This document shows positions 19,923 to 35,397 of a stretch of 43,101 nt of DNA, piece after piece. The DNA lies in assembly GCA_903873715.1 (NCBI GenBank), contig CAIQPS010000002.1, positions 1 through 43,101 of the forward strand, given 5' to 3'. Below the pieces are notes generated by a model. It worked only from the letters and a program-made list of their open reading frames with translations. It searched no databases and was not told where the DNA came from. The DNA comes from an uncultured Actinomycetes bacterium (GTDB lineage Bacteria; Actinomycetota; Thermoleophilia; RBG-16-64-13). The translations under genes and the position numbers were made by a program. Each line of letters starts with the position of its first letter. Position 1 is the first letter of the stretch.

Positions 19923-20473
19923 GACTCACACTCCACGGGGTTCTCGCCCAGCAAGGGCTGTTCCGCGGCCCGTGCAGGCGTGTGCGCTTCCGGCCGCTTC
20001 TTGTAGTCCTGGACGATGACGGCCACCCGGTTGGGCGTGAGCTTCGTATGGATCTCGTCGTTCACCAGCATGGCCGGGCCCTGGTCGCACATGCCCATGC
20101 AGTTGGCCCATTCGAGGCTGAACATGCCGTCGGCAGACGTCTCGCCGAACCCGATGCCCAGATTGCGGGAGAGCTGCTTGGCGATCTCTTCCTTGCCGGC
20201 CAGCTCGCACGAATAGGTGCGGCACAGCCGGAAGATGAAGCGGCCCTCGGGCTTCGGGTTCAGGAAGGCGTAGAAGGTGGCCACCGCGTTCACTTCGACC
20301 GGGTGGCAGCCAAGCACGTCGGCGATGATCTGCATCGCCTCGCTGTCGATACCCCTGTATTTCTCTTTGACCGTGCGAAGTACGGGGATGAGGGAGGCGC
20401 GGTTGTAGTTGGTGAGGGCCGCGACCTCCATGACCTCTTCGCGCAGTCTGGCGTAGTCGACCACAGGCCTCAC
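19919..20473 (-). CDS. hydC: NuoE/HydC-like [2Fe-2S] subunit
   Basis: A 184-residue 24-kDa-type thioredoxin-fold protein. [2Fe-2S] ligands are seen as CRTYSC (C-x4-C) and CMGMC (C-x3-C). The N-terminal helical part (RASLIPVLRTVKEKYRGI, LGCHPVEVNAVATFYAF) is standard. The C-terminus has a short extension (KKRPEAHTPARAAEQPLLG). Start overlaps the receiver stop (ATGA) and its stop overlaps hydB (ATGA), so the four-gene operon is tightly coupled. Confidence 0.93.
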   Translation of the reverse strand: MRPVVDYARLREEVMEVAALTNYNRASLIPVLRTVKEKYRGIDSEAMQIIADVLGCHPVEVNAVATFYAFLNPKPEGRFIFRLCRTYSCELAGKEEIAKQLSRNLGIGFGETSADGMFSLEWANCMGMCDQGPAMLVNDEIHTKLTPNRVAVIVQDYKKRPEAHTPARAAEQPLLGENPVECES

Positions 20474-21024: not shown

Positions 21025-22209
21025 TCAGGCGTTCGCCGAGGCCGGAGCCGGCTCCGGCGCAGCCGCCGAGTCGGCATCCCTGAGGGTCACCGTGAAGATC
21101 GACCCCTTGCCCTTCTCGCTCTTCACGGTCGCGTCGCCGCCGTAGAGCTGGGCGAGCTTCCGCACGGTGGAGAGCCCCAGGCCGGAGCCGAGGATCTTGT
21201 AGGTGTCCTCGTTCTTGATGCGCACGAACTCCTGGAAGAGCTTGGCGCTCTCCTCCGCCGTGAGACCGATGCCCGTGTCGGCCACCTGGATCTTCACGGG
21301 GCCCGGGGCGCCCCCGTCGAGGGTCTTGCGCTCGAGGGCCACGGTGACGGTGCCGCCGTCCTTGTTGTACTTGACGGCGTTGGACACCAGGTTGTTGAGG
21401 ATGATCTCCAATTCGCCCGGGTCGGCCAGCATCTCGACCGGTTCGGCGGCGCGCAGGGTGATGGTGATGCCCCGTCCGGCCGCCTCCTGCGAGACCATGT
21501 CGATGGCCGCCTGCGTGATCGCCCGCACGTCGGCGCTGACCAGTTCTCGCTGCTTCTGCCCGGATTCGATCCTGGTGAGGTCGAGCAGGTCGAAGATGAG
21601 CTTCCGCATGCCGTCCAGGCGCACGAGGCTCCTGTCGATCATCAGGCGCCTGTCTTCGGGCTCGTCTGGCTGCAGGATCTTGAGATAGCCCTCTATGGCG
21701 TTGATCGGTGATTTCAGCTCGTGGGAGAGCACCGAGATGAAGTTGAACCGCACCTGGCGCTGGGCTTCGGCGAGGCGGCGGGCCTCCCGGCTGATGATCA
21801 GCTGGTCTGTGGCCTTACGGACCGCGTACCGCAGCTCCTCCGGAGAGAACGGCTTGGGCAGGAAGTCATAGGCGCCGAGCTTGGTGGCCTGCACCGCGGT
21901 CTCGAACGTGGCGTAGGCCGTGATCATGATGGCCAGGATGCTGCGCCCCTGGGTCTTGAGCTTCTGAAGGATGTCCAGCCCGTTGATGCCCGGCAACTTG
22001 AGGTCCACCAGAAGTAGGTCGAACTCGGCGCCCTTGTCCAGTTCCTCGAAGAACTGCTCTCCGCTGCCGAAGTGGGTGGACGTATAGGAGACGTCCACCT
22101 CCACGTCCTCCACGTGCACCTGGTACTTGTTGAGGATGCGCTCGACCGCCAGACAGAGCGGCTCCTCGTCGTCCACCATGGCGACCCGCAAGGCCTGCTG
22201 CGGGCTCAT
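21025..22209 (-). CDS. receiver-histidine kinase (REC-HisKA-HATPase)
   Basis: A 394-residue protein. Receiver (about 8-125) with DDEEPL, phosphoacceptor in LLVDLKLPG, Thr in ITAYA and Lys in LPKPFSPEE; HisKA with phospho-His in SVLSHELKSPINAI; HATPase with NNLVSNAVKYN, VADTGIGL and GSGLGLSTVRKL. The tail is Ala/Pro-rich. The receiver comes first, as in phosphorelay intermediates that take phosphate from another kinase. The frame opens upstream to 22818 but that is shadow sequence; ATG 22209 overlaps the stop of the hydrogenase-sensor kinase (ATGA), its likely upstream partner. Confidence 0.92.
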   Translation of the reverse strand: MSPQQALRVAMVDDEEPLCLAVERILNKYQVHVEDVEVDVSYTSTHFGSGEQFFEELDKGAEFDLLLVDLKLPGINGLDILQKLKTQGRSILAIMITAYATFETAVQATKLGAYDFLPKPFSPEELRYAVRKATDQLIISREARRLAEAQRQVRFNFISVLSHELKSPINAIEGYLKILQPDEPEDRRLMIDRSLVRLDGMRKLIFDLLDLTRIESGQKQRELVSADVRAITQAAIDMVSQEAAGRGITITLRAAEPVEMLADPGELEIILNNLVSNAVKYNKDGGTVTVALERKTLDGGAPGPVKIQVADTGIGLTAEESAKLFQEFVRIKNEDTYKILGSGLGLSTVRKLAQLYGGDATVKSEKGKGSIFTVTLRDADSAAAPEPAPASANA

Positions 22210-24257
22210 GCCAGCGCTCCGATCATCCCGTGCGAGGTGGGCGCGCCTGTCTCCTTGCGCGGCAGATCGATGCGGAACGTGGTGCCGGTGGGACCGGCCG
22301 CCGGGTCGCTGTTGGACTGCACGCTTATCTGACCGCGGTGCATCTTGATGATGCCGTGAGTGACCGCCAGCCCGAGCCCGGTCCCCATCCCCACCTGCTT
22401 GGTGGTGAAGAACGGGTCGAAGAGCTGGGCCATGTGTTCCTTCGCGATCCCGCTGCCGCTGTCCGCGACTTTGATGGTGACCGTGCCGGCCGTGTCCGTG
22501 AGGGTGATGGTTATCGTGCCGCCGTCGGGCATGGCGTGCTGGGCGTTGGTGAGCAGGTTGGTGAGCACCTGCACGATCTGGTCGCCGTCGATCTCGGCGA
22601 TGCTGTCGTTCAGGCGGTCGTCGACGGTGATCTCCACGTTCTCGGCGGTCGGGGCGGTGCGGATGACCTTCTCCACCAACTCGGACAGGTCCGTGGGCTG
22701 CCGCACCACCCGGCTCTGGCGGGCGAAGTTGAGCAGCCCGGAGATGATCCGCTTGCAGCGGTTGGCCTGGTCCACGATGGTCTCCAGGTCCGCCTTCACC
22801 TCGGAGTCGTCCTCGCACTCCTCGAGCAGCAGGTTGGCGTGCAGGAGCAGCGTGCCGAGCGGGTTGTTGACCTCGTGGGCGATGCCGGCGGCGAGTTGCC
22901 CCATGCTGGCCAGCCGCCCGGTGCGCTCGAGCGCCTCCTTGGCCTCTTCCAGCGACTTGTGCGACTCCTCAAGCTGCCTGTAGGCAGAACGGAGTTGCTC
23001 GATGGCGTGGGGGAGGCACATGTCCGAGTCGGCCAGTCCGGCGAACACCGCGTAGGCGTGGTCCAGGCAGGTGTCGTACCCGCAGGCGCCGCAGTTCAGC
23101 AGGTCCTGGGCCTTGTACTTGCCCATCCGCCGGAGGATCTCGTCGATGTCCTGCAGGGTCGGGATCTCGGCGAGGGTCTGGACGTCGGCCTGATACTCAC
23201 GGCTGAGGTCCAGGTCCCGGTAGGTCTCGGGGGCGCCGTCGACGAGGGCGCGCTCTTCATCGGTCATGCTGCCCAGGCGGTTGCGGGCGTACGCACTCAC
23301 GCGGCTTCGGCGCTGGAGCATGGTGAGGTCGCTGGTCATGCCGGGCCCGGCGAAGCAACCCGAGCAGGAAAGCACGTCGAGCAGCCGGGTGTCGCCGCCG
23401 GCGGTCATGTCGAACTCGGTGATGGCTTCGATGAACTCGCCCCGGCCCTCGGCTATCACCAGTTCGCCGGTGAGGAGGTCCTCATCGAGGCCGGCGGTCT
23501 GAAGAAGCCCCCCCGCGATGGGGAACACCGCACCGATGCCGCCATGCGGGGGGTCGAAGCGGTCTCCGTACGCGAAGTCGTCCGGTCTGACGCCTCTTCG
23601 CGCGAACATGTCCCGCAGTTCCGCGAAGGTGAGCACCGCGTCGACTTCCCCGTGGGTGGTGTCGATCGATGCGCGCTTCTTGGCCACGCACGGGCCCATG
23701 AACACGACCTTCGTGTCGGCGCCCATCTCGTACCTCAGCACCCGCGCCATGGCCACCATCGGAGAGACGATGGGGGCGAGATGCGGCATCAGTCTGGGAT
23801 GGTACTTGCGCACGTATGCCACGGCCGCGGGGCACGGGGTGGTGATGTACCGGCCCTGCGGGTCCTTCTCGAGGAGCTTGCGGTATTCCCCGGCCACGAG
23901 GTCCGCGCCGAGCGACATCTCATGGACGGAATCGAACCCCAGCGCTCTGATCATGGAGATCAGCCGGTCGGGCGAGATGTCGACGAATTCGGCGGGGAAG
24001 CTGGGGGCGACCATGGCCACCACCTTCTCCCCGCTCGCCAGCAGCGAGAAGGCCTTGGCGGTGTCGTCGCGGACCTGCTTGGCGTTCTGGCTGCACACCC
24101 GGAGGCAGTTGCCGCACCCGATGCAGCGCGGCTGGATGACGCGGGCCTGACCGTCCACCACCTGGATGGCCTTGGCGGGGCACTCCCGCACGCAGGCGTA
24201 GCACATGCGGCATTTCTCGCCGATGATGGTGATGAGCGGGTTGTCCCAGGTGGGCAT
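22206..24257 (-). CDS. HsfB-like sensory [FeFe]-hydrogenase / histidine kinase
   Basis: A 683-residue sensor. Two [4Fe-4S] ferredoxin motifs (CRMCYACVRECP, CIGCGNCLRVCS) at residues 16-60. Then an H-domain (about 75-370) with divergent signatures: TTPCPAAV for TSCCPxW (proton-relay Cys replaced by Pro), MGPCVAKKRA for MPCxxKxxE, and LSCSGCFAGPG for the third motif. Next a CoFeSP-type [4Fe-4S] motif (CGACGYDTC, then MCLP), a short coiled coil, HisKA (GIAHEVNNPLG) and HATPase (NLLTNAQHA, VADSGSGI, GTGLGLAVTHGI). The family is proposed to sense H2 or redox state by a slow H-cluster and signal by phosphorylation. Regulator genes lie on both sides. Confidence 0.93.
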   Translation of the reverse strand: MPTWDNPLITIIGEKCRMCYACVRECPAKAIQVVDGQARVIQPRCIGCGNCLRVCSQNAKQVRDDTAKAFSLLASGEKVVAMVAPSFPAEFVDISPDRLISMIRALGFDSVHEMSLGADLVAGEYRKLLEKDPQGRYITTPCPAAVAYVRKYHPRLMPHLAPIVSPMVAMARVLRYEMGADTKVVFMGPCVAKKRASIDTTHGEVDAVLTFAELRDMFARRGVRPDDFAYGDRFDPPHGGIGAVFPIAGGLLQTAGLDEDLLTGELVIAEGRGEFIEAITEFDMTAGGDTRLLDVLSCSGCFAGPGMTSDLTMLQRRSRVSAYARNRLGSMTDEERALVDGAPETYRDLDLSREYQADVQTLAEIPTLQDIDEILRRMGKYKAQDLLNCGACGYDTCLDHAYAVFAGLADSDMCLPHAIEQLRSAYRQLEESHKSLEEAKEALERTGRLASMGQLAAGIAHEVNNPLGTLLLHANLLLEECEDDSEVKADLETIVDQANRCKRIISGLLNFARQSRVVRQPTDLSELVEKVIRTAPTAENVEITVDDRLNDSIAEIDGDQIVQVLTNLLTNAQHAMPDGGTITITLTDTAGTVTIKVADSGSGIAKEHMAQLFDPFFTTKQVGMGTGLGLAVTHGIIKMHRGQISVQSNSDPAAGPTGTTFRIDLPRKETGAPTSHGMIGALA

Positions 24258-24267
24258 CAGGACCCGC

Positions 24268-24810
24268 CTATGAGTCTGGTCCCGTACCGGTCGTGCCGCC
24301 GTCTGGGCCGGCGCCGCCGGCAGGTGGCTCGCCGCTCCTGCCCGCCAGCAACTCCGCGATCTTGGGGAGCAGCTTGGCCGGCACGAGCGGTTTGTCGAAG
24401 TAGGCGTCCACGTTCATCTGCTTGGTCTCCTCCTCCGAGCGGGGCCGGAAATCAAGGCCGAGGGCACTCGAGACCGACGTGGAGAGGATGACGGGGATGC
24501 CGGCGTAGGCGGGGTCCTCTTTTATGGCTCTCGCGAAGGAGAAGCCGGAGTCCATGGAGGTCATCATGAGGTCGCTGATGACCAGATCGGGCTTCTCTTC
24601 CGCCATCTTCTTGAGGGCCGCCTGCGGCTCGGAGGCGGTGACGACGCGGTAGCCGGCCCGCTCGAGGACCATGCGGTTTATCTCGACGAAATCGAAGTCG
24701 TCGTCGACGATCAATATGAGAGCTTGACCAGCCGTCGTGTTCGCTCCTTTGCGACCGTCCCGCCGGGGACTGGGTTTATGCGGTGCCGCCGCCGCGAGCG
24801 GCGGCGGCAC
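24268..24810 (-). CDS. single-domain response regulator, start uncertain
   Basis: A receiver (VDDD pocket, phosphoacceptor in LVISDLMM, Thr/Ser in LSTSVS, Lys in YFDKPL) with a Gly/Pro-rich tail. The only standard start upstream of the fold is GTG 24810, which lies inside the hairpin that closes the hydA2 operon. A good AAAGGAG (24744-24750) instead points to a start near 24735-24738, where the codons are ACG ACG; a non-standard ACG start or a sequence error is possible. It precedes the sensor kinase gene by 10 nt, so it is the probable cognate regulator. No DNA-binding domain. Confidence 0.85.
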   Translation of the reverse strand: MPPPLAAAAPHKPSPRRDGRKGANTTAGQALILIVDDDFDFVEINRMVLERAGYRVVTASEPQAALKKMAEEKPDLVISDLMMTSMDSGFSFARAIKEDPAYAGIPVILSTSVSSALGLDFRPRSEEETKQMNVDAYFDKPLVPAKLLPKIAELLAGRSGEPPAGGAGPDGGTTGTGPDS

Positions 24811-24858: not shown

Positions 24859-26631
24859 CTATACCCTGTCCTTCTCGGTGTACTTGGTGTGCAGCAGCTC
24901 ATGGGACAGATGGCCCAGCGGCTGGCCCAGATACTCGTCGTACAGGGCGAGGATCTCCGGGTTCTCGTGGGATTTGCGCAGCTCGCGGCCTTCGTCCTCC
25001 GCATAGATGGCCTTGATGCGGGCCTGCCGCACCGCGTCGGAGGTGAGACGCGGTTGACCGCCGCCGCCGATGCACCCTCCGGGGCAGGTCATCACTTCCA
25101 CGAAGTGGTAGGACGCTTCACCGCGACGGATGCGGTCGATCACCTTCTGTGCGTTGGCGAGACCGTGAGCCACCGCCACGTTGACCGTCGCTCCTTTGAG
25201 GAACGCCCAATCGGGCACGGTCTCCTCGATGGTGACGGACGCTTCCTTGACTCCCTCCAGGCCCTGGATGGGCGTCACATGGAGGTTGTCGAACGGGAAG
25301 GCGGTGCCGGTGACGATCTCGTAGGCCGTGCGGAGTGCTGCTTCCATAACCCCTCCGGTGGCCGCGAAGATATCGGCGGCACCGGTGGAGATGCCCAGGG
25401 GCTTGTCCATCTTCTGCTCGGGCAGGCTGCGGAAGTCGATGCCGGCCTGCTTGACCATGCGGGCGAGTTCCCGGGTGGTCAGCACGTAGTCGACGTCCTG
25501 CATGCCGTCACGACCCATCTCCGGACGGGCGCACTCGAACTTCTTGGCAGTGCAGGGCATGACCGAGACCACCACCACGTTCTTGGGATCCATGCCCAGC
25601 TTCTTCGGGTAGTAGGTCTTGGCCAGGGCGCCGAACATCTGCTGCGGCGACTTGCAGGTGGACAGGTTGGCCAGCATGTCCGGGTTGTAGTGCTCCATGT
25701 AGTTGATCCAGCCCGGGGAGCAGCTGGTGAACATGGGGAGGGCGACCTCCTTGTCTTCCACCAGGGCCTTCTTGAGGCGGGTCAGCAGCTCGGTGCCTTC
25801 CTCGATGATGGTGAGGTCGGCCGTGAAGTTGGTGTCGAACACCGCGTCGAAGCCCAGACGGCGGAGGGCCGCCACCATCTTGTCGGTCACCAGGGTGCCT
25901 GGTTCGTATCCGAACTCCTCGCCGAGGGCCGCGCGGATGGCCGGGGCCGTCTGGACGATCACGTGTTTCTTGGGATCGTCGAGCGCTTCCCAGACCTTCT
26001 CCGTCACGCTGTTCTCGGTGATCGCCCCCACCGGGCACACGGCGGCGCACTGTCCGCACTGGACACAGACGACGTCCGCCAGGTCCATGGCGAAGGCCGG
26101 ACCGATGACCGTGTTGAAGCCGCGGTTCTGCGGGAACAGGGCGCCGACACCCTGCACCTGGTTGCAGACGGTGACACACCGCCGGCACGAGATGCACTTC
26201 CCGGTGTCGCGGACGAGAGCGGGCGTGGTCCGGTCGATCTTCTGACTGGTCCTCTCGCCCTGGTACGTGACCTCGTCGATGTTCAACAACTCGGCCAGGC
26301 TGCGCAGCTCACAGTCGGCGGTGCGCACGCAACTCTGGCAGTCGCCGGCGTGCTCCGAGAGGAGCAGTTCGAGTACCGCCCGGCGAGCGCGGCGCGCACG
26401 GCTGGAACTGGTGTGAACGACCATGCCCTCTGTGGCCGGCTGCACGCACGAGACCACGAGGGTCTTGGCTCCCTCGACCTCCACGAGGCACATCCTGCAG
26501 GCGCCGATGGCCTGCACGCCCTCGAGGTAGCACAGGGTGGGTATGCGGGCGCCGGCCTGCCGGCAGGCGTCAAGCAGGGAAGTGCCCTCAGGCACCTCGA
26601 CCTTGATGTCGTCAACGGTCAGGACTGGCAT
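24859..26631 (-). CDS. hydA: [FeFe]-hydrogenase catalytic subunit (copy 2)
   Basis: A 590-residue HydA. [2Fe-2S] domain (TLCYLEGVQAIGACRMC), His-ligated cluster (EHAGDCQSCVRTADC), complete 2x[4Fe-4S] motifs (CISCRRCVTVC, CVQCGQCAAVCP), then H-domain TSCSPGW, MPCTAKKFEC and EVMTCPGGCIGGGGQP, ending HELLHTKY. Unlike copy 1, all ferredoxin Cys ligands are present. Start ATG 26631 overlaps the stop of the flavoprotein gene by one base (TAATG). The frame continues upstream to 26799 but that is shadow of the flavoprotein. Expected to form a complex with the NuoF-NfnB fusion, ferredoxin and NuoE proteins encoded immediately upstream. Confidence 0.96.
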   Translation of the reverse strand: MPVLTVDDIKVEVPEGTSLLDACRQAGARIPTLCYLEGVQAIGACRMCLVEVEGAKTLVVSCVQPATEGMVVHTSSSRARRARRAVLELLLSEHAGDCQSCVRTADCELRSLAELLNIDEVTYQGERTSQKIDRTTPALVRDTGKCISCRRCVTVCNQVQGVGALFPQNRGFNTVIGPAFAMDLADVVCVQCGQCAAVCPVGAITENSVTEKVWEALDDPKKHVIVQTAPAIRAALGEEFGYEPGTLVTDKMVAALRRLGFDAVFDTNFTADLTIIEEGTELLTRLKKALVEDKEVALPMFTSCSPGWINYMEHYNPDMLANLSTCKSPQQMFGALAKTYYPKKLGMDPKNVVVVSVMPCTAKKFECARPEMGRDGMQDVDYVLTTRELARMVKQAGIDFRSLPEQKMDKPLGISTGAADIFAATGGVMEAALRTAYEIVTGTAFPFDNLHVTPIQGLEGVKEASVTIEETVPDWAFLKGATVNVAVAHGLANAQKVIDRIRRGEASYHFVEVMTCPGGCIGGGGQPRLTSDAVRQARIKAIYAEDEGRELRKSHENPEILALYDEYLGQPLGHLSHELLHTKYTEKDRV

Positions 26632-29600
26632 TACTTCACCTCTTCTTGTACTTCGGCGCCTACGCCCCGCGCGGCGGCCACTGGGATCTTGCCGTAGTCG
26701 CAGCGCAGGCAGCGCTTCGCCTCGGCGCAGGCAGTGTCGAGGTTCCAGGAGAGCTCGACCTCGTCGAAGGTGCAGGCGCGGGCCTCGGGATCGAGGCACA
26801 CGACCGCGGCCCGCGCGGTGGTCACCGGGTCGGCGTCTGGATCGAACCAGACGTCCACGGCGACGTCCCTGCGCCAGAACGCGTGGTTGGCGCCTGTCAG
26901 ATACTGGTCGATGGCCACGGCGGCGCGTTCGCCCGCTCCGACGGCCTCCACAACGGATGCGGGGCCGGTCGCGGCGTCACCGCCCGCGAAGATCCACTCC
27001 ACGCTGGTGGCGCCGGTCGCGCGGTCGACCTTGAACCAGGCGCGGTTCATCTCGACGGGCAGGTCGCCGATGAGCGCCTTCGCGTCGAGCGACTGGCCGA
27101 CGGCTGCGATCACCTGGTCGCACGCGACGGTGAAATCGGGGTTGCGCCCGGCGACCGGGGCCCTGCGGCCGCTCCGGTCGTAGTCCCCGAGAGCCATCTT
27201 CTGGCAGAGCACGCCGAGCACCTTGCCGTCCTTGTCGCGGAGGATCTGCTTGGGCGCGGTGAGGGGCAGCACTGTGATGCCCTCTTCGTCCGCAGCCAGG
27301 ATCTCCTCCGCCCAGGCGGGCATCTGCTCGCGCTGGCGGCGATAGAGGATGTTGACGTGCTCGGCGCCGAGCCTCAACGCCGTCCGAGCCGCGTCGATGG
27401 CGGAGTTGCCGCCACCCACCACGGCCACCTCGGTCCCGACCGCGGCCGTGCCGTGCACGTTGTAGTCGCGAAGGAAGGTGAGAGCTTCGGTCACGCCGGC
27501 GCCACGCTCGCCGGGGATGCCCATGCCGACACCGGCCGGGGCGCCCACGCCGAGGAACACGGCTTCATAGCCCTCGTCCTTCAGGCCCTGGAGGGTGAAG
27601 TCCTTGCCCAGGGTCATGCCGTGCTTGATGGTCACGCCCATGCTCTCGATCATGCTGATCTCGCGGCCCAGTTCCTCACGGGGCAGCCGGTAGGCCGGGA
27701 TGGCCTGCACCAGCATGCCGCCCGAACTCGGCTCCTTCTCGAACACCGTGGGCTTGTAGCCGAGGCGGGCCAGGAAGTACGCACAGGAGAGACCGGCGGG
27801 GCCGGAGCCCACCACGGCGATCTTCTTGGCCGCGTTCTCAGTGTTCACTTTGACCTGGGGCAGCCGGACCTCGGTCTCCTGCTCGGTCATGAAACGCTTG
27901 AGGCTGCGGATGGCGACGGGCTCGTCGAGGCCGCCGCGCACGCACTTGCTCTCGCAGGGGTGGAAGCACACGCGGCCGCAGATGCTGGCCAGCGGGTTGC
28001 GTTCCCGGTGCAGCGTGAGAGCTTCGTCGAAGCGCTTCTCGCCTATGAGGCTCACGAAACCGGGCACGTTCACGTTGGCCGGGCACGCGTTGGTGCACTT
28101 GGACGTGAACATCGTCGAGCAGACGCCGGCTTCGCAGTAGTGGTCCTTGATGTGGGCCTCATACTCGTGGCGGAAGTGGCGGATGGTGGAAAGCACCGGG
28201 TTGGCCGCCGTCTGGCCCAGACCGCAGAGGGCGGTGTCCTTGATGATGGTGCCCAGTTCCTCGAGCGCCTCGATGTCGCCTTCCCTGCCCTCACCGTTGC
28301 AGATGCGGGTGACGATCTCGAGCATGCGCTTGGTGCCCACCCGGCAGGGCGGGCATTTGCCGCAACTCTCGTCCTGGATGAAGTCCAGGAAGTAGCGCGC
28401 CACATCCACCATGCATGAGTCGTCGTCCATGACGATGCAGCCGCCGGAGCCCATGATGGCGCCCAGTTCCTGCAGGGTCTCGTAATCGACGGGGACGTTG
28501 AGGTCGGTCTTCGGGATGCAGCCGCCGGACGGGCCGCCGAGCTGGACGGCTTTCAGTTCCTTGCCGTTCGGCACGCCGCCGCCGATCTCGTAGACGATCT
28601 CACCCAACTGGACGCCGATGGGCACTTCCACCAGACCGGCGTGCTGGATGGCGCCACCGAGGGCGAAGACCTTGGTGCCCTTGCTCTTCTCGGTACCGGT
28701 GCTGGCGTACCACTCGGCGCCCTTGAGGATGATGGGGGCGATGTTCGCGAACGTCTCGACGTTGTTGAGCACGCTCGGCTTGTCCCACAGGCCTTTGACG
28801 GCCGGGAACGGGGGACGGGGCCGGGGCTCGCCGCGGCCGCCCTCGATGGAGCGCATGAGGGCCGTCTCTTCACCGCAGACGAAGGCACCGGAGCCCATGC
28901 GGATCTCGAGGTCGAACTCGAAGCCGGTGCCCATGATGTCGGTGCCGAGCAGTCCCAGGTCACGCGCCTGGTCGATGGCGTACTGCAGACGCTCGACCGC
29001 CAGCGGGTACTCGGCCCGCAGGTATACGAAGCCCTGCTTTGCGCCGATGGCATAGGCGCCGATGGCCATGCCTTCGATTAGGCTGTGCGGGTCGCCTTCG
29101 AGGACCGACCTGTCCATGAACGCGCCGGGGTCGCCGTCGTCGGCGTTGCAGAGGATGTATTTGACGTCCGACTCGGTCTGCCGGGCGAACTTCCACTTGA
29201 GCCCTGTGGGGAAGCCGGCGCCGCCGCGGCCGCGCAGGCCGGAGCGCAGGACTTCACTCACGACCTCTTCGGGCTTCATCTCGGTGAGCACCTTGGCCAG
29301 GGCCTGGTAACCCTCGCGGGCGACGTACTCCTCTATCTTGAGCGGGTCGATGATCCCGGAGTTCCGCAGAACGATCTTCACCTGGCGGTTGAAGAACTCC
29401 ACGTCCTCCATCTCGGCGACGGAGCGGTCGGTGCCCGGAGCGTGGCTCACAAGGCGGGTGACGACCCGGCCCTTGAGGAGGTGCTCCTCGCAGATCTCAT
29501 GCACGTCCTCGATGTGGACGTTCTGGTAGAAGACCCCGTCCGGGTAGATGAGGACCACGGGACCGACGGCGCAGGGGCCGAGGCAGCCGGTCTCGATGAC

Positions 29601-29726
29601 CTGCGTGTTCTGGGCGATCCCCATGTCCGCGAGCTCTTTGGAGAACGCCGCGCTTACTTCCAGGGCACCTGAGGCGATGCACCCGCCCCCGGTGCAGATG
29701 AGCACCTGGTTGCTGATCTTTTCCAT
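26631..29726 (-). CDS. NuoF/HydB fused to NfnB/GltD-like FAD-NAD(P)H oxidoreductase
   Basis: A 1031-residue fusion. Residues 1-100: thioredoxin-like [2Fe-2S] domain (CTGGGC, CLGPC). About 120-540: NuoF core with GRGGAGFPTGLKW, CGEETALMRSIEGG, and DESCGKCPPCRVG. About 545-640: Cys-rich linker with CTNACPANVNVPG and ICGRVCFHPCESKC, as at the N-terminus of NfnB and GltD. About 645-1000: FAD fold (AVVGSGPAGLSCAY), NAD(P) fold (AVVGGGNSAIDAARTA, ILYRRQREQMPA), FAD end (FAGGDAATGPASVVEA), and tail CLRCDYG. The expected HydB C-terminal ferredoxin is replaced by this module. It may add NADP(H) or a second flavin site to a bifurcating hydrogenase, comparable in content to Sporomusa-type Nfn complexes. 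Confidence 0.93.
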   Translation of the reverse strand: MEKISNQVLICTGGGCIASGALEVSAAFSKELADMGIAQNTQVIETGCLGPCAVGPVVLIYPDGVFYQNVHIEDVHEICEEHLLKGRVVTRLVSHAPGTDRSVAEMEDVEFFNRQVKIVLRNSGIIDPLKIEEYVAREGYQALAKVLTEMKPEEVVSEVLRSGLRGRGGAGFPTGLKWKFARQTESDVKYILCNADDGDPGAFMDRSVLEGDPHSLIEGMAIGAYAIGAKQGFVYLRAEYPLAVERLQYAIDQARDLGLLGTDIMGTGFEFDLEIRMGSGAFVCGEETALMRSIEGGRGEPRPRPPFPAVKGLWDKPSVLNNVETFANIAPIILKGAEWYASTGTEKSKGTKVFALGGAIQHAGLVEVPIGVQLGEIVYEIGGGVPNGKELKAVQLGGPSGGCIPKTDLNVPVDYETLQELGAIMGSGGCIVMDDDSCMVDVARYFLDFIQDESCGKCPPCRVGTKRMLEIVTRICNGEGREGDIEALEELGTIIKDTALCGLGQTAANPVLSTIRHFRHEYEAHIKDHYCEAGVCSTMFTSKCTNACPANVNVPGFVSLIGEKRFDEALTLHRERNPLASICGRVCFHPCESKCVRGGLDEPVAIRSLKRFMTEQETEVRLPQVKVNTENAAKKIAVVGSGPAGLSCAYFLARLGYKPTVFEKEPSSGGMLVQAIPAYRLPREELGREISMIESMGVTIKHGMTLGKDFTLQGLKDEGYEAVFLGVGAPAGVGMGIPGERGAGVTEALTFLRDYNVHGTAAVGTEVAVVGGGNSAIDAARTALRLGAEHVNILYRRQREQMPAWAEEILAADEEGITVLPLTAPKQILRDKDGKVLGVLCQKMALGDYDRSGRRAPVAGRNPDFTVACDQVIAAVGQSLDAKALIGDLPVEMNRAWFKVDRATGATSVEWIFAGGDAATGPASVVEAVGAGERAAVAIDQYLTGANHAFWRRDVAVDVWFDPDADPVTTARAAVVCLDPEARACTFDEVELSWNLDTACAEAKRCLRCDYGKIPVAAARGVGAEVQEEVK

Positions 29727-29756: not shown

Positions 29757-30134
29757 CTAGGAGGCGATGAGGTATTCGGTCGCCGGTTTGCCCCCGACGA
29801 GGTGCGACTGCACGATCGCGTGCACCTTGTCGCGGTTCTCCAGCAGACCGTAGTGGTACACCGACCCATCGGCGAAACTCACCGTGGCCATCGGCTCCAT
29901 CTCGCACAGCCCGGCGCAGCCGGACTGGTGGATGGTGACGTTGGAAAGCTTGGCGTCGGCGATCTCGGAGAGGAACGCCACGACGACGTCCCGCGCCCCG
30001 GCGGCGATGCCGCAGGTGCCCATGTGGACCGTCACCTTGATCTCCTTCGGGCCGCCGCGCAGGTCGAGGTCTTCCTTGGCCTTGCCGGCCATGGCGAGCA
30101 GGTCGGCAGGGCTCTTGATCTTGTCAGCCATCAC
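29757..30134 (-). CDS. thioredoxin-like [2Fe-2S] ferredoxin
   Basis: A 125-residue protein with VTVHMGTCGIAAGARD and HQSGCAGLCEMEPMATV, the pattern of the small [2Fe-2S] proteins found beside NuoE in clostridial hydrogenase operons. Only three Cys are visible, so the fourth ligand is unclear. Start overlaps the NuoE-like stop (ATGA); the fusion gene follows after 30 nt. Likely an extra electron-transfer subunit. Confidence 0.87.
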   Translation of the reverse strand: MMADKIKSPADLLAMAGKAKEDLDLRGGPKEIKVTVHMGTCGIAAGARDVVVAFLSEIADAKLSNVTIHQSGCAGLCEMEPMATVSFADGSVYHYGLLENRDKVHAIVQSHLVGGKPATEYLIAS

Positions 30135-30673
30135 TCGCTCCTTCCACCGGCGCCGACAGCTTCAGGCGCGTACTGGGCCAAGACCTCGTTGATCCGCGCC
30201 GGCTTGACCCGGTGATGCACGACGTCGTTGATCGTGATCACGGGCGCCAACCCGCAGGCGCCGAAGCAGCGGGCCACTTCGAGGGAGAACTCCCGATCCT
30301 CGGTGGTCTCTCCGACGTCGATGCCCAGTTGCTTCTTGAGGGCTTCGAGCACCTGCATCCCCCCGCGCACGTAGCACGCGGTGCCCAGGCATACTCGGAT
30401 GAGGTTGCGGCCCCGTGGGACCGTCGAGAAGAACGAGTAGAAGCCGACCACGCCGGCCACCTCGCTGTAGGGTTTGCCGAGGCCCTTGGCGACCTTCTTG
30501 AGGGCCACTTCCGGCAGATAGCCGAAGATGCCCTGGGCCATCTGCAGCACCGGGATCAATGCCCCCGGCTTCTCCTTGTACTTTTCGATCACTTCGTCCA
30601 GGCGGGCGAGCAACTCCTCTTCGGAGGCCTCCTCACATCCTGAACAACCCGTTTTCCCAACATCGTCGGTCAT
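30131..30673 (-). CDS. hydC: NuoE/HydC-like [2Fe-2S] subunit (copy 2)
   Basis: A 180-residue 24-kDa-type subunit with CLGTACYVRGG and CFGACG for the [2Fe-2S] site and the usual helical lead (GALIPVLQMAQGIFGYLPE). An N-terminal CSGC pair is extra. GGGAG lies upstream of ATG 30673. A 135-bp gap separates it from the GHKL ATPase gene; I see no convincing promoter there, so read-through from rex is likely, with an internal start possible. Confidence 0.93.
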   Translation of the reverse strand: MTDDVGKTGCSGCEEASEEELLARLDEVIEKYKEKPGALIPVLQMAQGIFGYLPEVALKKVAKGLGKPYSEVAGVVGFYSFFSTVPRGRNLIRVCLGTACYVRGGMQVLEALKKQLGIDVGETTEDREFSLEVARCFGACGLAPVITINDVVHHRVKPARINEVLAQYAPEAVGAGGRSE

Positions 30674-30808: not shown

Positions 30809-31306
30809 TCAGGTCACTGACTCCTCCGCGAATCGTTGGAGCCGTGTTGCCGCCTCCAAAGGAGGGGCGTCGTGGAGGGGGGGCACGAACGCGTCCCCTC
30901 TCAGGGTCACCTTGAACTCCACGCCCGGATTGGTCACCGCCGTGACGATGATGGTGGTGGCCACATCGCCGATGGGCGGCCGGTCCAGGTCGTTCAGTCG
31001 CATATGGGTCTCCACGCGCACCCCACCCAACTCGGGCGACGTCCCGATGGTGAGGCCGCCGCCGGCCGCTTCCGCGTCGGCTTTGAGGAGCGCCAGACCG
31101 AGCCCCGTCTTCTTGCCGGGCTTGGTGGTGTAGAACGGGTCGAGGGTCTGCTCCGGGGTGGCGCTGAGCCCGGTCCCGTCGTCGTCCACGGCCAGGCTGA
31201 GCTCGTCGCCCGCCCGGTCGATGACCACCTCGATGTCCACGCGGGTCGCCCCGGCGCGGGTGGAGTTCTCGAGCACCTCGAGGAGGTAGAGGGAGAGGTC
31301 ATGCAT
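30809..31306 (-). CDS. GHKL-family ATP-binding protein
   Basis: A 165-residue stand-alone HATPase: N box EVLENSTRAGAT, G1 DDDGTGL, F-box-like DPFYTTK, G2 KTGLGLALLK. There is no HisKA or phospho-His region, so it cannot be an ordinary sensor kinase. Stand-alone GHKL ATPases act as anti-sigma or Ser kinases, or as partners of another histidine-bearing protein. Start overlaps the PHP gene stop by 8 nt. The same set of neighbours is seen in some clostridial hydrogenase operons, but I know no established function. Confidence 0.88.
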   Translation of the reverse strand: MHDLSLYLLEVLENSTRAGATRVDIEVVIDRAGDELSLAVDDDGTGLSATPEQTLDPFYTTKPGKKTGLGLALLKADAEAAGGGLTIGTSPELGGVRVETHMRLNDLDRPPIGDVATTIIVTAVTNPGVEFKVTLRGDAFVPPLHDAPPLEAATRLQRFAEESVT

Positions 31307-32072
31307 CGCCGCCTCCCGAGCCCCCGCGGCCGACCCTCGCGGTCGTGCGCCCGCCGGCGCGCTTGAGGGCCAGGGCCAGTTCGGAGAAGGTGGGCGCCTC
31401 GGCGGTCAACTCGGTGACCCCCTGGCCGATCTCCTCCAGGTAGTGGGCGTCCGACGAGCCGACGAGCGGCAGTCCCACGGCCACGATCTGTGCCAGCCTG
31501 GGGGAGTCCGCCTGCATCCACTTGGAGGTCTCCAGGGCGTCGAACCCCGCGTCCTCCGGGAAGAACCCCAGCTGCGACAGGACGCTGAAGGCTTTCCTGT
31601 CCACGTGGGCCGCTATCGCCAGACCGCCACCGTCGTGGATGAGCGCCACGGTCTCGTCCAGACCGAGCGGAGTCGCCATGGCCAGGGCCGCGGTCTCGGC
31701 GCCCACGGTACGGCCGTCCACATCCAGCACCGGCTGTTCGCCGAAGAACGAGTAGTAGTGCTCGTCGGCGGCGGGGAGCATCTCGCGGACCCGGGCCGCC
31801 ACCCGCTCGGCGTGATCGGCGTCGGGGAACAGGCCGACCACGTGGACCTCTTCCGCGCTGGTCAGCTCCATCCCGGCCAGCACTGCCAGGCCCGCGGCTT
31901 CGCCCGCCTGCTGGACGGCCCGGACGTTGCCGGCGGCGTTGTGGTCGCACACGGCGATCATCTCAAGCCCTCTCGCCAGCGCCGCGGCCACGATGGCCGC
32001 GGGAGTCATCTCGTCCGCACCGCACGGCGACAGGGCCGTGTGGATATGAAGATCCGCACGGAAGAGCCGCAT
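31299..32072 (-). CDS. PHP-domain metal-dependent phosphoesterase
   Basis: A 257-residue PHP protein with metal ligands in order: ADLHIHTALSPCG, VCDHNA, GMELTSAEEVHVVG, IAAHVDRK, and GSSDAHYLEEIG. No polymerase or histidinol-phosphatase features, so it resembles the YciV/TrpH-like group that removes phosphate from nucleotides or small phosphates. I chose ATG 32072, where the fold begins; a longer frame to 32141 overlaps the DRTGG gene. In this operon it could act as the phosphatase opposing the two ATPase proteins (inference). Confidence 0.88.
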   Translation of the reverse strand: MRLFRADLHIHTALSPCGADEMTPAAIVAAALARGLEMIAVCDHNAAGNVRAVQQAGEAAGLAVLAGMELTSAEEVHVVGLFPDADHAERVAARVREMLPAADEHYYSFFGEQPVLDVDGRTVGAETAALAMATPLGLDETVALIHDGGGLAIAAHVDRKAFSVLSQLGFFPEDAGFDALETSKWMQADSPRLAQIVAVGLPLVGSSDAHYLEEIGQGVTELTAEAPTFSELALALKRAGGRTTARVGRGGSGGGDA

Positions 32073-32128
32073 CGATGTGGTCCGTTCGTCCAACCATGGT
32101 CCCTTACAGCACGCTCCTACTCCCGGCG

Positions 32129-32476
32129 CTAGGCCGGGCACCCCCGCAGACCCAACTCGTACATCCGTCCGACCAACTCGAAGGTGTCGGCCTTCGAGGC
32201 GAACAGAGAGAGCCCCTCGCCGGTGGCCCGCTCGATGATGTCTTCCTCGGGCATCCGGCCGCAGGAGAAGATCACTCCCCTCAGCCCGGCATGGCTGGCC
32301 ACGGCGATGACGTTCAAGTGCACCTGGAGGGTCACCAGCAGGCCGCCCTCAGGAGCGTGGGCCAGTACGTCGCTGAGCAGGTCGGAGGCGTAGCCCTGGG
32401 TGATGACCGCGTCGCCGTCCCCGGCGGGAGTGAGCTCTTCTAGGCCGAGGGCCTCGGCCAGTTCATGCAAGGTCAT
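32129..32476 (-). CDS. stand-alone DRTGG-domain protein
   Basis: A 115-residue protein with a DRTGG-like fold: helix MTLHELAEALGLEEL, GYASDLLSDVLAHAPEGGLLVT, and AVASHAGLRGVIFSCG, then a KADTFELVGRMYELG tail. DRTGG domains occur next to phosphotransacetylase or in HPr kinase N-termini and are thought to bind ligands. The same fold is fused to Rex at 34192 in this operon. Start overlaps the ATPase-ferredoxin gene stop (ATGA), with GGAGGACGCGGAG upstream. Confidence 0.8.
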   Translation of the reverse strand: MTLHELAEALGLEELTPAGDGDAVITQGYASDLLSDVLAHAPEGGLLVTLQVHLNVIAVASHAGLRGVIFSCGRMPEEDIIERATGEGLSLFASKADTFELVGRMYELGLRGCPA

Positions 32477-34167
32477 GACTCCGCGTCCTCCTTCTCCGGG
32501 GCGATGTACGGGCACAACCCGATGGTGGCCCGTTCCATGACGACGTCTTCGGCCAGGGCGGCGCAGGTGGGCGCGCCGCAGGTGCCGCAGTCCCGGCCCG
32601 GCAGCGAGCGGACTATCGCCTGCAGCCGGCCGAGTTTCTGGATGGCCTTGCCCATGTCCGGGTCCAGCCGGATGCCCGGCCGGGCCGCGTACGGCCGGCG
32701 GCGGGTGGTGGCGGCCAGGAGCGCTTCGGCCGAAGCTGCGCCTCCGTTGCCGTCCTGGGTCTGGACCTGGGCCAGGTCGCGGCTCCAGCGGCGGAGCGCG
32801 ACGTGATAGTCCTCGAACAGCAGGGGGGAGCCGAAGCAGCCGCCCTCGCAGGCGTACGCCTCGATCGCCGGGATGTCTTCGAGCAGACCGTTCTCGATCT
32901 CCTCGAGCACGGCCATCACGTGGCGGATGCCGGTCACCACCAGCGTGTCGCCGCGCATCTGTGTCCCGGGCGGCGTCTCGGCCGAAGCGGCCGGGGCCGG
33001 CTCACCGCCGATCGCGGGGCCTGTCAACTCGACCATCACGGGGCTGCGCAGCGCCTCGGGCAGCAGGCAGTCGATGGTCGCGCCGCCCTCGGCGGCCGGC
33101 TTGTGCACCTCGCCCGCCGCCAACACGGACCGCTGGCCCGGGCAGGAGACCACGCAGGCGAGAGCGGCGTCGCCGCTCAGAGCCTCCACGGCCTCCCAGG
33201 GAGAGGCGACCGGAGGTATCGACGAGACGAGCGAGGGGAACTTCAGTTCCACCAGATTGATGATGGCGGGGCACATCGGGAGGATGGCGGGGCCGGCGGG
33301 GATCTCCCCGCCGGCAGTCACCGCCGGATCCGAGGCGGCCGCAGTGCCGCCGGCTTCGCCGGGCGCCTGCGCGGCCCTCCGTACCGCCTCTTCGAAAGGC
33401 CGAGCCGTGTGGGCCTGGGGGAATCCCAGACGGCCCATCGCCGTGAGTACCCGCGCAGGCGGGTAATCCGAGCCAAAGCCTGCGAGCAGCGCGGGGGGAG
33501 CCACGAGGGCGGCGGTGCTGCGGGCTTTGACGTCGTCGACGGAAGTGAGGACATCGCGGATGGTGAGGGCGCCGGTCGCGCACGCCGAGATACATTCCGC
33601 GCAGTCTATACAGAGGTGCTCGAGCACCATCGGCCGGCCTCCACGGACGCGCAACGCCTGCGTGGGGCAGGCGGCCAGGCAGGCCCGGCAGTCGCGGCAG
33701 CGGTCGGCGGAGGCATACAGGGAGATGGCCGGTGCCACCGAGGTGACTTCCGGGCGCAGATACACGCTGAAGCTCACCCGGGTGCCCTCACCGGGGCGTG
33801 AGGTGACTCGCAGGCGGTCGCTGCTGCGCTGGATGTTCGGCAGGCCCATCCCGGCCCCGAAGCCCAGGGCCCGGGCCTCGGCCGTGGCGGTGGAGAAGCC
33901 CTCTTTCATCGCCATCTCGATGTCGGGGATCCCCGGTCCTGCATCGACCACGTTGACGTCGATCCGGGTGTCCGACAGCGAGGCTTCGAGCCGGCCGCCG
34001 ACCGAGTGGATCACCACGTTCATCTCCGCCTCGTAGGAGGCGATCATGGTGCGGCGGATGGCGTCGGCCTCAGCGCCGATGTGCTTGAGGTGCTCCTTGA
34101 TGGCGCGCGAAGCCGCACCCGCCCTGCGGAAGTCGTTGCTCTCTATCTCGTAGGAAACGAACTCCAT
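32473..34167 (-). CDS. RsbW-like ATPase fused to ferredoxin and divergent [FeFe]-hydrogenase domain
   Basis: A 564-residue fusion. Residues 1-137: anti-sigma-type HATPase with SYEAEMNVVIHS, VVDAGPGIPD and GFGAGMGLPNIQRSSD. Residues 157-200: two [4Fe-4S] motifs (CRDCRACLAACP, CIDCAECISACA). About 225-460: a hydrogenase-like domain keeping single Cys at the first motif (LPMCPAI), second (VSCPGQRS, Lys lost) and third (ACEGGCFGSP), enough for a [4Fe-4S] site but without the proton-relay Cys. About 530-557: CoFeSP-type cluster motif (CGTCGAPTC, LCPY), as in the sensor at 22206. It looks like a redox or H2 sensor controlling an ATPase/kinase output. Proteins of this content accompany hydrogenases in other anaerobes; the function is not established. 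Confidence 0.85.
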   Translation of the reverse strand: MEFVSYEIESNDFRRAGAASRAIKEHLKHIGAEADAIRRTMIASYEAEMNVVIHSVGGRLEASLSDTRIDVNVVDAGPGIPDIEMAMKEGFSTATAEARALGFGAGMGLPNIQRSSDRLRVTSRPGEGTRVSFSVYLRPEVTSVAPAISLYASADRCRDCRACLAACPTQALRVRGGRPMVLEHLCIDCAECISACATGALTIRDVLTSVDDVKARSTAALVAPPALLAGFGSDYPPARVLTAMGRLGFPQAHTARPFEEAVRRAAQAPGEAGGTAAASDPAVTAGGEIPAGPAILPMCPAIINLVELKFPSLVSSIPPVASPWEAVEALSGDAALACVVSCPGQRSVLAAGEVHKPAAEGGATIDCLLPEALRSPVMVELTGPAIGGEPAPAASAETPPGTQMRGDTLVVTGIRHVMAVLEEIENGLLEDIPAIEAYACEGGCFGSPLLFEDYHVALRRWSRDLAQVQTQDGNGGAASAEALLAATTRRRPYAARPGIRLDPDMGKAIQKLGRLQAIVRSLPGRDCGTCGAPTCAALAEDVVMERATIGLCPYIAPEKEDAES

Positions 34168-34191
34168 CGGCCCGGACCTTCGGCGCGTCCC

Positions 34192-35307
34192 CTACGCGGA
34201 CTTCTCGACGACGTCGTCCATCATCCCCGTGAGTATCTGGTAGATGAGGCCGCAGGTCTCGAAGACGCCCACGGGCGAGACCATGATCATCGTGGAGTTG
34301 GTGCGGGCGAGGGTGACGATCTCCTTGTCGGGGTTGACGCCCTCCACGAAGCAGACCCCGGGCACTTCCATGAGTTCCGCCACCCGGACCATCTGCACGT
34401 TGGCGAGGTTGGTGACGAGGAGGGTGGTTCGGGACGCCTCGTTCAGCAGGTCGCTCACCCGGTCTCCTGCGTAGATCCTGGTGATCTTCGCGCCCTCCGG
34501 GCCGGGTGTGAGCACCGTGGCGCCTATCCGGCGCGCGAGATCCTCGAGTCTCATGTCGGCCCCCGCAAGTAGTGAATCGATACTCTGGATGATGGGTCGC
34601 ATCTCGGCATCCGACGCGGCTATGCCGGTGAACGTCTCGGTATCGGAGTCCTGGTCGTCGGTCGTGGAGGCGCCGTCCTGGCGAGCGAAGAAGGCCGCCG
34701 TCTCCAGCGCCGACGTGATGTCCATGTGACGTACGAAGATCTGCTCCGGCAGGCGCAACGGTACCGCGGTGAAGTCCACGAGGCTGCGCACCCCGGCCCG
34801 GACCAGGCTGTCGGCGACCTTCTGGGCCACCTCCGGCGGCACGGCCAGGATGGCCACCCGGATGCCCTTGTCCTTGACGATCTGTTCCAGGTCGGCCATC
34901 GCGTGCACGTGGCAGCCCTCGATGGTCGTCCCGATGAGGGTCGGGTCGGTGTCGAAGCCGGCGGCGATGTGCAGCAGCGGGCGCCGCCCGGCGAAGTGGG
35001 CGAGCACGGAGCGGCCCAGGCGGCCGAGCCCGACGAGGGCTACGTCCTGCCGGGTGGTGCCGTCCAGCAGGTGCTCGATGCTGGCGAGGCAGGTGTCGAG
35101 CTGGTAGCCGCGGTTGGGGCTGCCCGAGTACCCGATCACCATGAAGTCGCGCCGCACTTGAGCGGCGCTGACGCCGGCCAGGTGAGCGAGTTGGTGGGAG
35201 TAGATGCTCGTGGTGCCTGTCTTCTGGAGGTCGGAGAGCACGCGGCGATAGCGGCTGAGCCGCTGCACTGTCTTGCGCGAGACCACGGGCTTTGCGGTCG
35301 ATGCCAC
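34192..35307 (-). CDS. rex: redox-sensing repressor Rex with C-terminal DRTGG domain
   Basis: A 371-residue protein, far longer than normal Rex (about 210). Residues 10-80: winged helix (SRKTVQRLSRYRRVLSDL, SAAQVRRDFMVIGYSG). About 85-210: Rossmann domain with GLGRLGRSVL, FDTDPTLIG, AILAVPPEVAQ, and VDFTAVPLRLPE, the NADH site of Rex. An acidic Ser/Thr linker (about 212-240) leads to a DRTGG domain (LEDLARRIGATVLTPGPEG, YAGDRVSDLLNEA, SPVGVFETCGLIYQIL). I chose GTG 35307 with GGAGG 5 nt upstream; the longer GTG 35334 lies inside a Rex operator. It leads the hydA2 operon; the next gene follows after 24 nt. Confidence 0.92.
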   Translation of the reverse strand: MASTAKPVVSRKTVQRLSRYRRVLSDLQKTGTTSIYSHQLAHLAGVSAAQVRRDFMVIGYSGSPNRGYQLDTCLASIEHLLDGTTRQDVALVGLGRLGRSVLAHFAGRRPLLHIAAGFDTDPTLIGTTIEGCHVHAMADLEQIVKDKGIRVAILAVPPEVAQKVADSLVRAGVRSLVDFTAVPLRLPEQIFVRHMDITSALETAAFFARQDGASTTDDQDSDTETFTGIAASDAEMRPIIQSIDSLLAGADMRLEDLARRIGATVLTPGPEGAKITRIYAGDRVSDLLNEASRTTLLVTNLANVQMVRVAELMEVPGVCFVEGVNPDKEIVTLARTNSTMIMVSPVGVFETCGLIYQILTGMMDDVVEKSA

Positions 35308-35318
35308 GCTACCTCCAA

Positions 35319-35383
35319 CCGTTACAGCAATCACAATGCTGTTATCCTTTTCACAATCTACTCTTTCGGGTAGAGTAAGTCAA
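35319..35383 (-). promoter_or_regulatory. rex promoter with tandem Rex operators
   Basis: Minus-strand -35 TTGACT (35378-35383), 17-nt spacer, -10 TAGATT (35355-35360). Two sites with a perfect TTGTGA half follow: TTGTGAAAAGGATAACAG (35339-35356; second half 4 of 6) and TTGTGATTGCTGTAACGG (35319-35336; second half 3 of 6). They are exactly 20 bp apart, two helical turns. The first overlaps the -10. This fits autorepression of rex and the operon behind it, relieved when NADH rises. Confidence 0.75.
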
Positions 35384-35397
35384 CACTACGTAGTGTT
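35382..35397. promoter_or_regulatory. perfect palindrome AACACTACGTAGTGTT
   Basis: A 16-bp perfect palindrome overlapping the -35 box of rex, in the intergenic region shared with the plus-strand TM1266-type gene. It is unlike the Rex consensus, so it may bind a second regulator acting on both directions. Confidence 0.5.

Follow-up and report, generated by a model that had tools for sequence, protein, structure and literature searches.

A candidate redox-responsive switch encoded beside an electron-bifurcating [FeFe] hydrogenase, with a Group D-derived hydrogenase-like protein as its putative sensor

TamHydS, a Group D (M2e) putative sensory [FeFe] hydrogenase of Thermoanaerobacter mathranii (PMC8163306, PMC10407848, PMC13104023), has two N-terminal [4Fe-4S] clusters, four cubane Cys and a C-terminal CX2CX4CX16C motif, and lacks the proton-relay Cys; its gene lies next to those for a bifurcating hydrogenase and a histidine-kinase-like ATPase. 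The placement of Group D proteins beside bifurcating hydrogenases was already known (PMC3561251, PMC8163306), and the TamHydS papers state as open how such proteins signal (PMC8163306, PMC10407848). Here, we analyze a 43,101-nucleotide stretch of contig CAIQPS010000002.1 from an uncultured Actinomycetes bacterium (hereafter, the window), in which a minus-strand row of five genes, overlapping or at most 24 bp apart (30809-35307), belongs to the same operon as a true bifurcating hydrogenase. The row encodes a Rex repressor carrying a DRTGG domain (Rex-DRTGG), an RsbW/SpoIIAB-type ATPase fused to a hydrogenase-like protein that we call HydD, a stand-alone DRTGG protein, a PHP phosphoesterase and a stand-alone GHKL ATPase. 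We propose, with a probability that we put at roughly 0.5, that these five genes form a redox-responsive switch for the adjoining electron-bifurcating enzyme.

HydD resembles TamHydS in each of the respects listed above and belongs to the same family by residue signature. The window protein differs in being fused to an ATPase, in lacking Lys358, the hydroxyl residue at 353 and E252, and in sitting on a long branch (2.84), whereas matured TamHydS keeps a functional H-cluster. A HATPase domain on a hydrogenase-like protein has been reported before, for the "group C1" [FeFe] hydrogenases of Hydrogenedentota, which carry HATPase_C, have hardly findable P1-P3 motifs and lie partly beside group A3 hydrogenases (PMC11406978); the portions of that report consulted describe neither DRTGG, PHP, GHKL or Rex partners, nor a maturase-free distribution, nor the kinase type, and its likeness to the window fusion is one of description only. 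With the SpoIIAB/RsbW anti-sigma kinases the window ATPase shares the fold, the N-box Glu/Asn and the G1 and G2 motifs, but it is fused to an Fe-S sensor, lies in an operon without a STAS partner and has DRTGG as its proposed partner. The SpoIIAB-like kinase CapK phosphorylates a conserved Ser in the STAS domain of a repressor, CapS, by which the operon is derepressed (PMC13373217). This pair likewise combines such a kinase with a DNA-binding repressor that has an invariant-Ser domain and controls its own operon; there, however, the domain is STAS, the input is single-stranded DNA, and Fe-S, PHP and DRTGG parts are lacking. In Caldicellulosiruptor, Rex represses bifurcating-hydrogenase operons (PMC8579813, PMC6391272), and a Rex operator likewise lies at the promoter of the Hyd operon, but that Rex is global and unfused. 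The operon described here, by contrast, opens with the gene for a dedicated Rex to which a DRTGG domain has been added. Each of the domains is known individually, and in the literature searched, which took in few subscription journals, we found no description of the six-gene cassette or its fusions, and none of its association with non-hydrogenase partners or its occurrence without maturases.

The initial annotation had read five adjacent genes, their domains, overlaps and order in a hydrogenase operon from the sequence, and this reading was upheld by the coordinates (Table 1), by Pfam and NCBIfam matches and by synteny. The matches comprise Rex (1e-55), HATPase_c (6e-9), Fe_hyd_lg_C (2e-8), FeS (PF04060; 2e-11), DRTGG (1e-6), two ferredoxin clusters, PHP with PHP_C, and a second HATPase; Rex is further identified by its PDB relative 2vt2 (3e-32). 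The DRTGG domain on Rex scores 17.1 bits, below the Pfam cutoff of 25.2; a family profile built here gives 109-125 bits in relatives. Structure prediction with AlphaFold2 and Foldseek recovered the folds that had been assigned, namely those of [FeFe] hydrogenases (CbA5H, CpI; E ~1e-11), SpoIIAB (1til) and DRTGG (2ioj; template modeling (TM) score 0.74-0.79). Chance or an annotation artifact as the source of the gene row is ruled out by synteny and structure.

In phylogenetic analysis, HydD forms one clade separate from groups A and C (support 96), and the fused lineage is a single clade (support 100) whose stem is long, as expected after a change of constraint; TamHydS itself is absent from the tree. 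Because clostridial members of the HydD clade carry the TamHydS signature (PMC10407848, PMC13104023), we assign HydD to the Group D/M2e family: these members have Ala (A137) in place of the proton-relay Cys, a distance of exactly 37 residues from E252 to E289, and D378 and D403 adjoining the C-terminal cluster Cys, with spacings of 152/89 against the published 151/90. All 16 Fe-S cysteines are invariant in the 14 fused sequences, including the four cubane Cys (C299, C342, C440 and C444 in the window protein), the two N-terminal [4Fe-4S] ferredoxin motifs (C157-C196) and the C-terminal CX2CX4CX16C (C527-C552). The residues of the diiron pocket, by contrast, have largely been lost. In the same 14 sequences, an invariant Gln (Q345) stands in place of the pocket Lys (CpI 358), which elsewhere is K in 94%. 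At 353, the hydroxyl residue has mostly given way to Val in the fused lineage (V340 in the window protein), and the W..GG(E) segment that includes E252 is replaced by a low-complexity linker variable in sequence and length; in the window protein, E289 alone is retained, as E436. The AlphaFold2 model of the window fusion has a mean predicted local distance difference test score (pLDDT) of 73.8, with residues 384-402 of the replaced stretch below 50. Considering that the Fe-S cysteines are kept and the pocket residues lost, window HydD is probably a sensor of redox state rather than of H2, with four predicted [4Fe-4S] clusters and, quite likely, no diiron site. On the pocket residues, we rejected a working hydrogenase as the principal interpretation. 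A better candidate for H2 sensing is the group C-type hydrogenase fused to a histidine kinase in the same operon, a conventional H2 two-component sensor that keeps the pocket Lys and is conserved in relatives together with its response regulator.

The order in which the module's parts might contact one another is suggested by fusions. Gene fusion is commonly read as a sign of contact between the products. Single-frame fusions join Rex to the type-2 DRTGG domain (DRTGG2) and RsbW to HydD in the window lineage, DRTGG2 to RsbW in four loci (L063, L086, L115, L119), HydD to the type-1 DRTGG protein (DRTGG1) in L109 and L122, PHP to GHKL in L088 and L112, and GHKL to HydC, the NuoE-like hydrogenase subunit, in L036 and L040; among the loci surveyed for fusions, none joined DRTGG1 to PHP. 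The Rex-DRTGG2 fusion occurs in all relatives of the window. These fusions therefore predict a chain of physical contacts from repressor to kinase to sensor and, separately, a path from PHP via GHKL to the enzyme.

The ATPase itself is of kinase type. Nearly all its motifs are 95-100% conserved across 96 sequences (N-box E46/N50; G1 D75/G77/G79; G2 GFGxGxGLPN), SpoIIAB proteins are its only PDB sequence relatives, aligned at E46/N50, and its model superimposes on SpoIIAB 1til with a TM score of 0.84 at 2.1 A. On the side of the presumed partners, a Ser is 100% conserved in both DRTGG types (S48 in 73 DRTGG1 sequences, S294 in 89 DRTGG2 sequences), each time within an invariant D..S motif (D45/S48 and D291/S294). 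In the DRTGG1 model (pLDDT 89), S48 is placed at the start of a helix, in its first turn; this predicted position recalls that of the phosphorylated Ser in STAS domains, without homology between the two. The metal-site His, Asp and Glu residues of PHP are invariant or nearly so across the family alignment. The initial annotation had proposed that an Fe-S or H-cluster sensor drives the ATPase: from fusions, conservation and structure, an Fe-S sensor coupled to a kinase-type ATPase and DRTGG partners is now well supported, while the loss of Lys, Thr and GGE and the lack of maturases in most relatives' genomes make H2 or H-cluster sensing unlikely.

A possible output was found at the head of the operon, where a putative Rex operator, TTGTGAAAAGGATAACAG, adjoins or overlaps the -10 box. 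Scanning with the 18-bp form TTGTKAAN4TTMACAA and allowing up to 3 mismatches, we found this to be the sole such site in the whole window. In 10 relatives, a site of the same class precedes Rex-DRTGG and is in many cases followed by a second array of half-sites. Judging from these sites, Rex-DRTGG very probably autoregulates its operon. A perfect 16-bp palindrome, AACACTACGTAGTGTT, overlaps the -35 box of the Rex-DRTGG promoter and is absent before the same gene in relatives. The intergenic region is shared with a divergent gene for an 82-aa protein that falls just below the CPF_0552 family cutoff and may be a further small regulator. Elsewhere in the genome, a Rex-type site, TTGTGAAATCAGTAACGA (G000:C14:44725-44742; L130, L133), precedes genes for an apparent DUF485 protein and an ActP-like solute symporter, both read by eye; it may be a second target of Rex-DRTGG.

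Table 1. Positions of the operon's genes, its promoter elements and other features of the window
Feature	Position	Strand	Remarks
Small divergent protein, 82 aa	35493-35741	+	
Perfect 16-bp palindrome	35382-35397		
Promoter of the operon, sigma-70 type	35355-35383	-	TTGACT-17-TAGATT; 1 in 800-bp region vs 0.0 expected from shuffles
Putative Rex operator	35339-35356	-	
Second half-operator, weaker	35319-35336	-	
Rex-DRTGG	34192-35307	-	winged helix-turn-helix, NAD Rossmann and C-terminal DRTGG2 (~residues 256-380 of a 380-aa open reading frame)
RsbW-HydD	32473-34167	-	RsbW/SpoIIAB-type ATPase (aa 1-138) fused to Group D-derived [FeFe]-hydrogenase-like protein
DRTGG1, stand-alone	32129-32515	-	invariant D45, S48, T62, H66
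PHP phosphoesterase with PHP_C	31299-32141	-	every predicted metal ligand invariant
GHKL ATPase, stand-alone	30809-31306	-	histidine-kinase-like catalytic domain without dimerization/phosphotransfer domain (DHp)
HydC, NuoE-like subunit	30131-30673	-	
HndB-like protein	29757-30134	-	[2Fe-2S], thioredoxin fold
HydB (NuoF)	26631-29726	-	fused to GltD-like FAD module
HydA, catalytic [FeFe] hydrogenase	24859-26640	-	near A. woodii HydA1 (7q4v, 623 bits); above FeFe_hydrog_A cutoff
Response regulator	24268-24810	-	
Group C-type sensory [FeFe] hydrogenase	22206-24257	-	fused to HisKA-HATPase
Second HydCBA set	16817-20473	-	

The start codon of Rex-DRTGG is taken as the GTG after GGAGG; the longest open reading frame extends to 35334. 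The TSCSPGW motif of the window's HydA looks odd and is identical in A. woodii HydA1. The catalytic subunit of the second HydCBA set, HydA2, scores above the cutoff for the NADH-dependent group A6 hydrogenase and occurs also in relatives without the cassette. The GC content of the window is 66.5%. Another contig of the same genome (G000:C146; L044, L134) carries a separate, ordinary Rex with an operator-like site, a third hydrogenase set and another group C sensor, with HydF and HydG nearby.

Conservation was analyzed at two depths. Among 61 genomes (the window's own and 60 relatives), the RsbW-HydD fusion is present in 15, and within contig reach nearly all of these show the same order, from Rex-DRTGG2, RsbW-HydD, DRTGG1, PHP and GHKL through HydC, HndB, HydB-GltD and HydA to the response regulator and the group C hydrogenase-kinase; identical gene order was counted in 13 relatives. 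Fusion and HydA ortholog occur together in 12 genomes (Fisher p 3e-9, kinship ignored). HydA without the fusion is found in one genome, where its match is cut short at one end, and the fusion without a full HydA match in three: two of these loci (L028, L039) run into a contig end, and in the third (G017; L040), cassette and HydB-GltD are followed by other genes and no HydA. Across 84,980 species genomes, an RsbW profile retrieved at least 511 relatives, of which the 80 best-scoring loci were examined, a non-random sample biased to uncultured phyla and consisting mostly of metagenome-assembled genomes (MAGs). In the 56 well-flanked loci, HydD was found in 55, DRTGG2 in 53, DRTGG1 in 47, and PHP and GHKL in 41 each, with all six families in 37. 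DRTGG2-RsbW-HydD can be taken as the core of the cassette and DRTGG1-PHP-GHKL as a frequent second block. The cassette recurs in records from ~18 phyla (by MAG titles, some possibly misnamed), so the possibility that the gene set is confined to close relatives is excluded. The initial statement that similar genes accompany some clostridial [FeFe] hydrogenases is an understatement, as the family is in fact pan-bacterial, with the Group D/M2e putative sensory hydrogenase at its core. Two relatives, G044 (L042) and G019 (L043), hold two modules each, a fused one without the pocket and an unfused DRTGG1-DRTGG2-RsbW-HydD with pocket residues; the pocket Lys of the unfused HydD is R in L042 and kept as K in L043.

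Outside the window lineage, the company of the cassette changes. HydA lies beside it in only 3 of 82 unfused loci, all from Clostridia. The neighbor is an HdrA-type subunit in 27, with 20 strong matches (~390 bits or more) and weak ones that are possibly other flavoproteins, and a molybdopterin oxidoreductase in 14. One HdrA-type neighbor was checked against solved HdrA, which confirmed its identity (418 bits). We tested 21 whole genomes for the maturases, 8 with a true [FeFe] hydrogenase and 13 with HydD alone. HydG scored above cutoff in 6/8 of the former vs 0/13 of the latter (Fisher p 0.0005), and HydF in 5/8 vs 0/13; six of the 13 are complete chromosomes (CP070718, CP070770, CP070834, CP070795, CP070825, CP070664). 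HydG was found in 6 of 50 further entries, one repeating an already counted genome, and was undetected also in three clostridial genomes with true HydA; an alternative maturation route may exist in the HydD-only genomes. The window genome encodes both HydF and HydG. The cassette is not hydrogenase-specific: it occurs also in genomes with neither hydrogenase nor its maturases, and since most sampled cassettes lie away from hydrogenases, the notion of a hydrogenase-specific module had to be given up. Retention of Lys358 was rejected as proof of a diiron site, because the Lys is also kept in maturase-free genomes; complete chromosomes (e.g., L084, L090, L126) have HydD with the pocket Lys though HydF, HydG and HydA are all absent.

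In the switch that we propose, HydD, with its Group D fold and four predicted [4Fe-4S] sites, would read the low-potential electron pool, presumably through ferredoxin, and its oxidation state would set the activity of the fused ATPase. The ATPase would act, most likely by Ser phosphorylation, on DRTGG1 and on the Rex-fused DRTGG, and Rex-DRTGG, on the operator over its own promoter, would combine NADH/NAD (through Rex) with the HydD-RsbW signal (through DRTGG). PHP, as a putative phosphatase, and the second GHKL ATPase would reset or counter the signal, with GHKL touching HydC. The parts of this scheme are not equally probable: direct contact between RsbW and DRTGG is likely, phosphotransfer from the one to the other stands slightly short of an even chance, and removal of the phosphate from DRTGG by PHP is doubtful. 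Several observations weigh against the scheme. DRTGG is not STAS, its solved relatives (2ioj, a CBS-DRTGG pyrophosphatase, the HPr kinase N-domain) are ligand-type or structural domains, and its invariant Ser could instead bind a ligand. Because Rex is outside the module except in the window lineage, a Rex-mediated output cannot be the module's general function. The fusion of GHKL to HydC, in turn, suggests that the enzyme is affected directly. Finally, conservation of the pocket Lys in maturase-free genomes too implies that pocket conservation and diiron binding are loosely linked.

The main alternative, which we regard as unlikely, is a post-translational gate or an assembly or activation factor: HydC/HydB would serve as docking site for the ATPases and HydD, and ATP would be spent on activation, on insertion or on turning off electron flow, with Rex as a transcriptional passenger. 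The in-frame union of GHKL with HydC in two genomes fits this, as does the retention of the cassette beside NuoEF-type complexes with differing catalytic subunits (HdrA, molybdopterin, HydA), and among relatives the cassette tracks HydA (12 of 13 genomes with an ortholog) and not HydA2. However, the cassettes L042 and L043 lack neighboring NuoEF genes, the known roles of SpoIIAB-type ATPases are those of kinase/anti-sigma proteins and not of chaperones, and the Rex-DRTGG2 fusion is present in every window relative. Rather less probable is a nucleotide-ligand system without protein phosphorylation, in which DRTGG binds a nucleotide or acyl-phosphate signal that PHP destroys and to which the two GHKL ATPases respond. 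DRTGG does adjoin CBS domains in the regulatory region of pyrophosphatase (3l2b/3l31), and nucleotide or RNA phosphoesterases are among the nearest relatives of PHP, but the DRTGG2-RsbW and HydD-DRTGG1 fusions suggest protein contact, both GHKL domains have full N-boxes, and the cassette includes no nucleotide-making enzyme.

We give still less credence to a true H2 sensor, the Group D hypothesis for TamHydS, in which HydD would hold an H-cluster whose state H2 alters to drive the ATPase. TamHydS binds an H-cluster and turns over once artificially matured (PMC8163306, PMC10407848), clostridial members with its signature (A137, E252, D378/D403) adjoin true HydA, and the window genome has both maturases; yet the window protein is without the Lys, hydroxyl and E252 residues, HydF and HydG are missing from 13/13 HydD genomes without HydA, and for sensing H2 the window already encodes a response regulator and, as its partner, an intact hydrogenase-histidine kinase of group C. 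Classical partner switching, with RsbW-HydD as anti-sigma factor for an unlinked sigma factor, has the SpoIIAB/RsbW fold in its favor and is very improbable, as the cassette spans many phyla with different sigma systems, and as the operon showed no gene for a STAS antagonist, a PP2C phosphatase or a sigma factor, and domain scans of the window proteins gave no STAS match (a genome-wide STAS search was not made).

For the redox switch, the comparison across phyla permits a wider and more tentative reading, which we consider possible: Group D "H2-sensing hydrogenases" may mostly be non-hydrogenases that serve as sensors in a redox phosphoswitch spread across the bacteria (HydD-RsbW-DRTGG, in most cases together with PHP and GHKL) and controlling NADH-linked bifurcating complexes of several catalytic kinds. 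The diiron-less fold would read ferredoxin, DRTGG would be a new class of receiver for a SpoIIAB-type kinase, and in the window lineage this receiver would be wired to Rex so that one repressor reads both NADH and ferredoxin. The absence of maturases from many HydD genomes suggests that the common role of the family is other than H2 sensing, in which case its annotation would change. For the Group D sensory hydrogenases, the fusions name signaling partners in order, and each contact is testable. If the proposal is true, anaerobes match their bifurcating enzymes to NADH and ferredoxin by dedicated control, which would be relevant to acetogenesis, syntrophy and biohydrogen.

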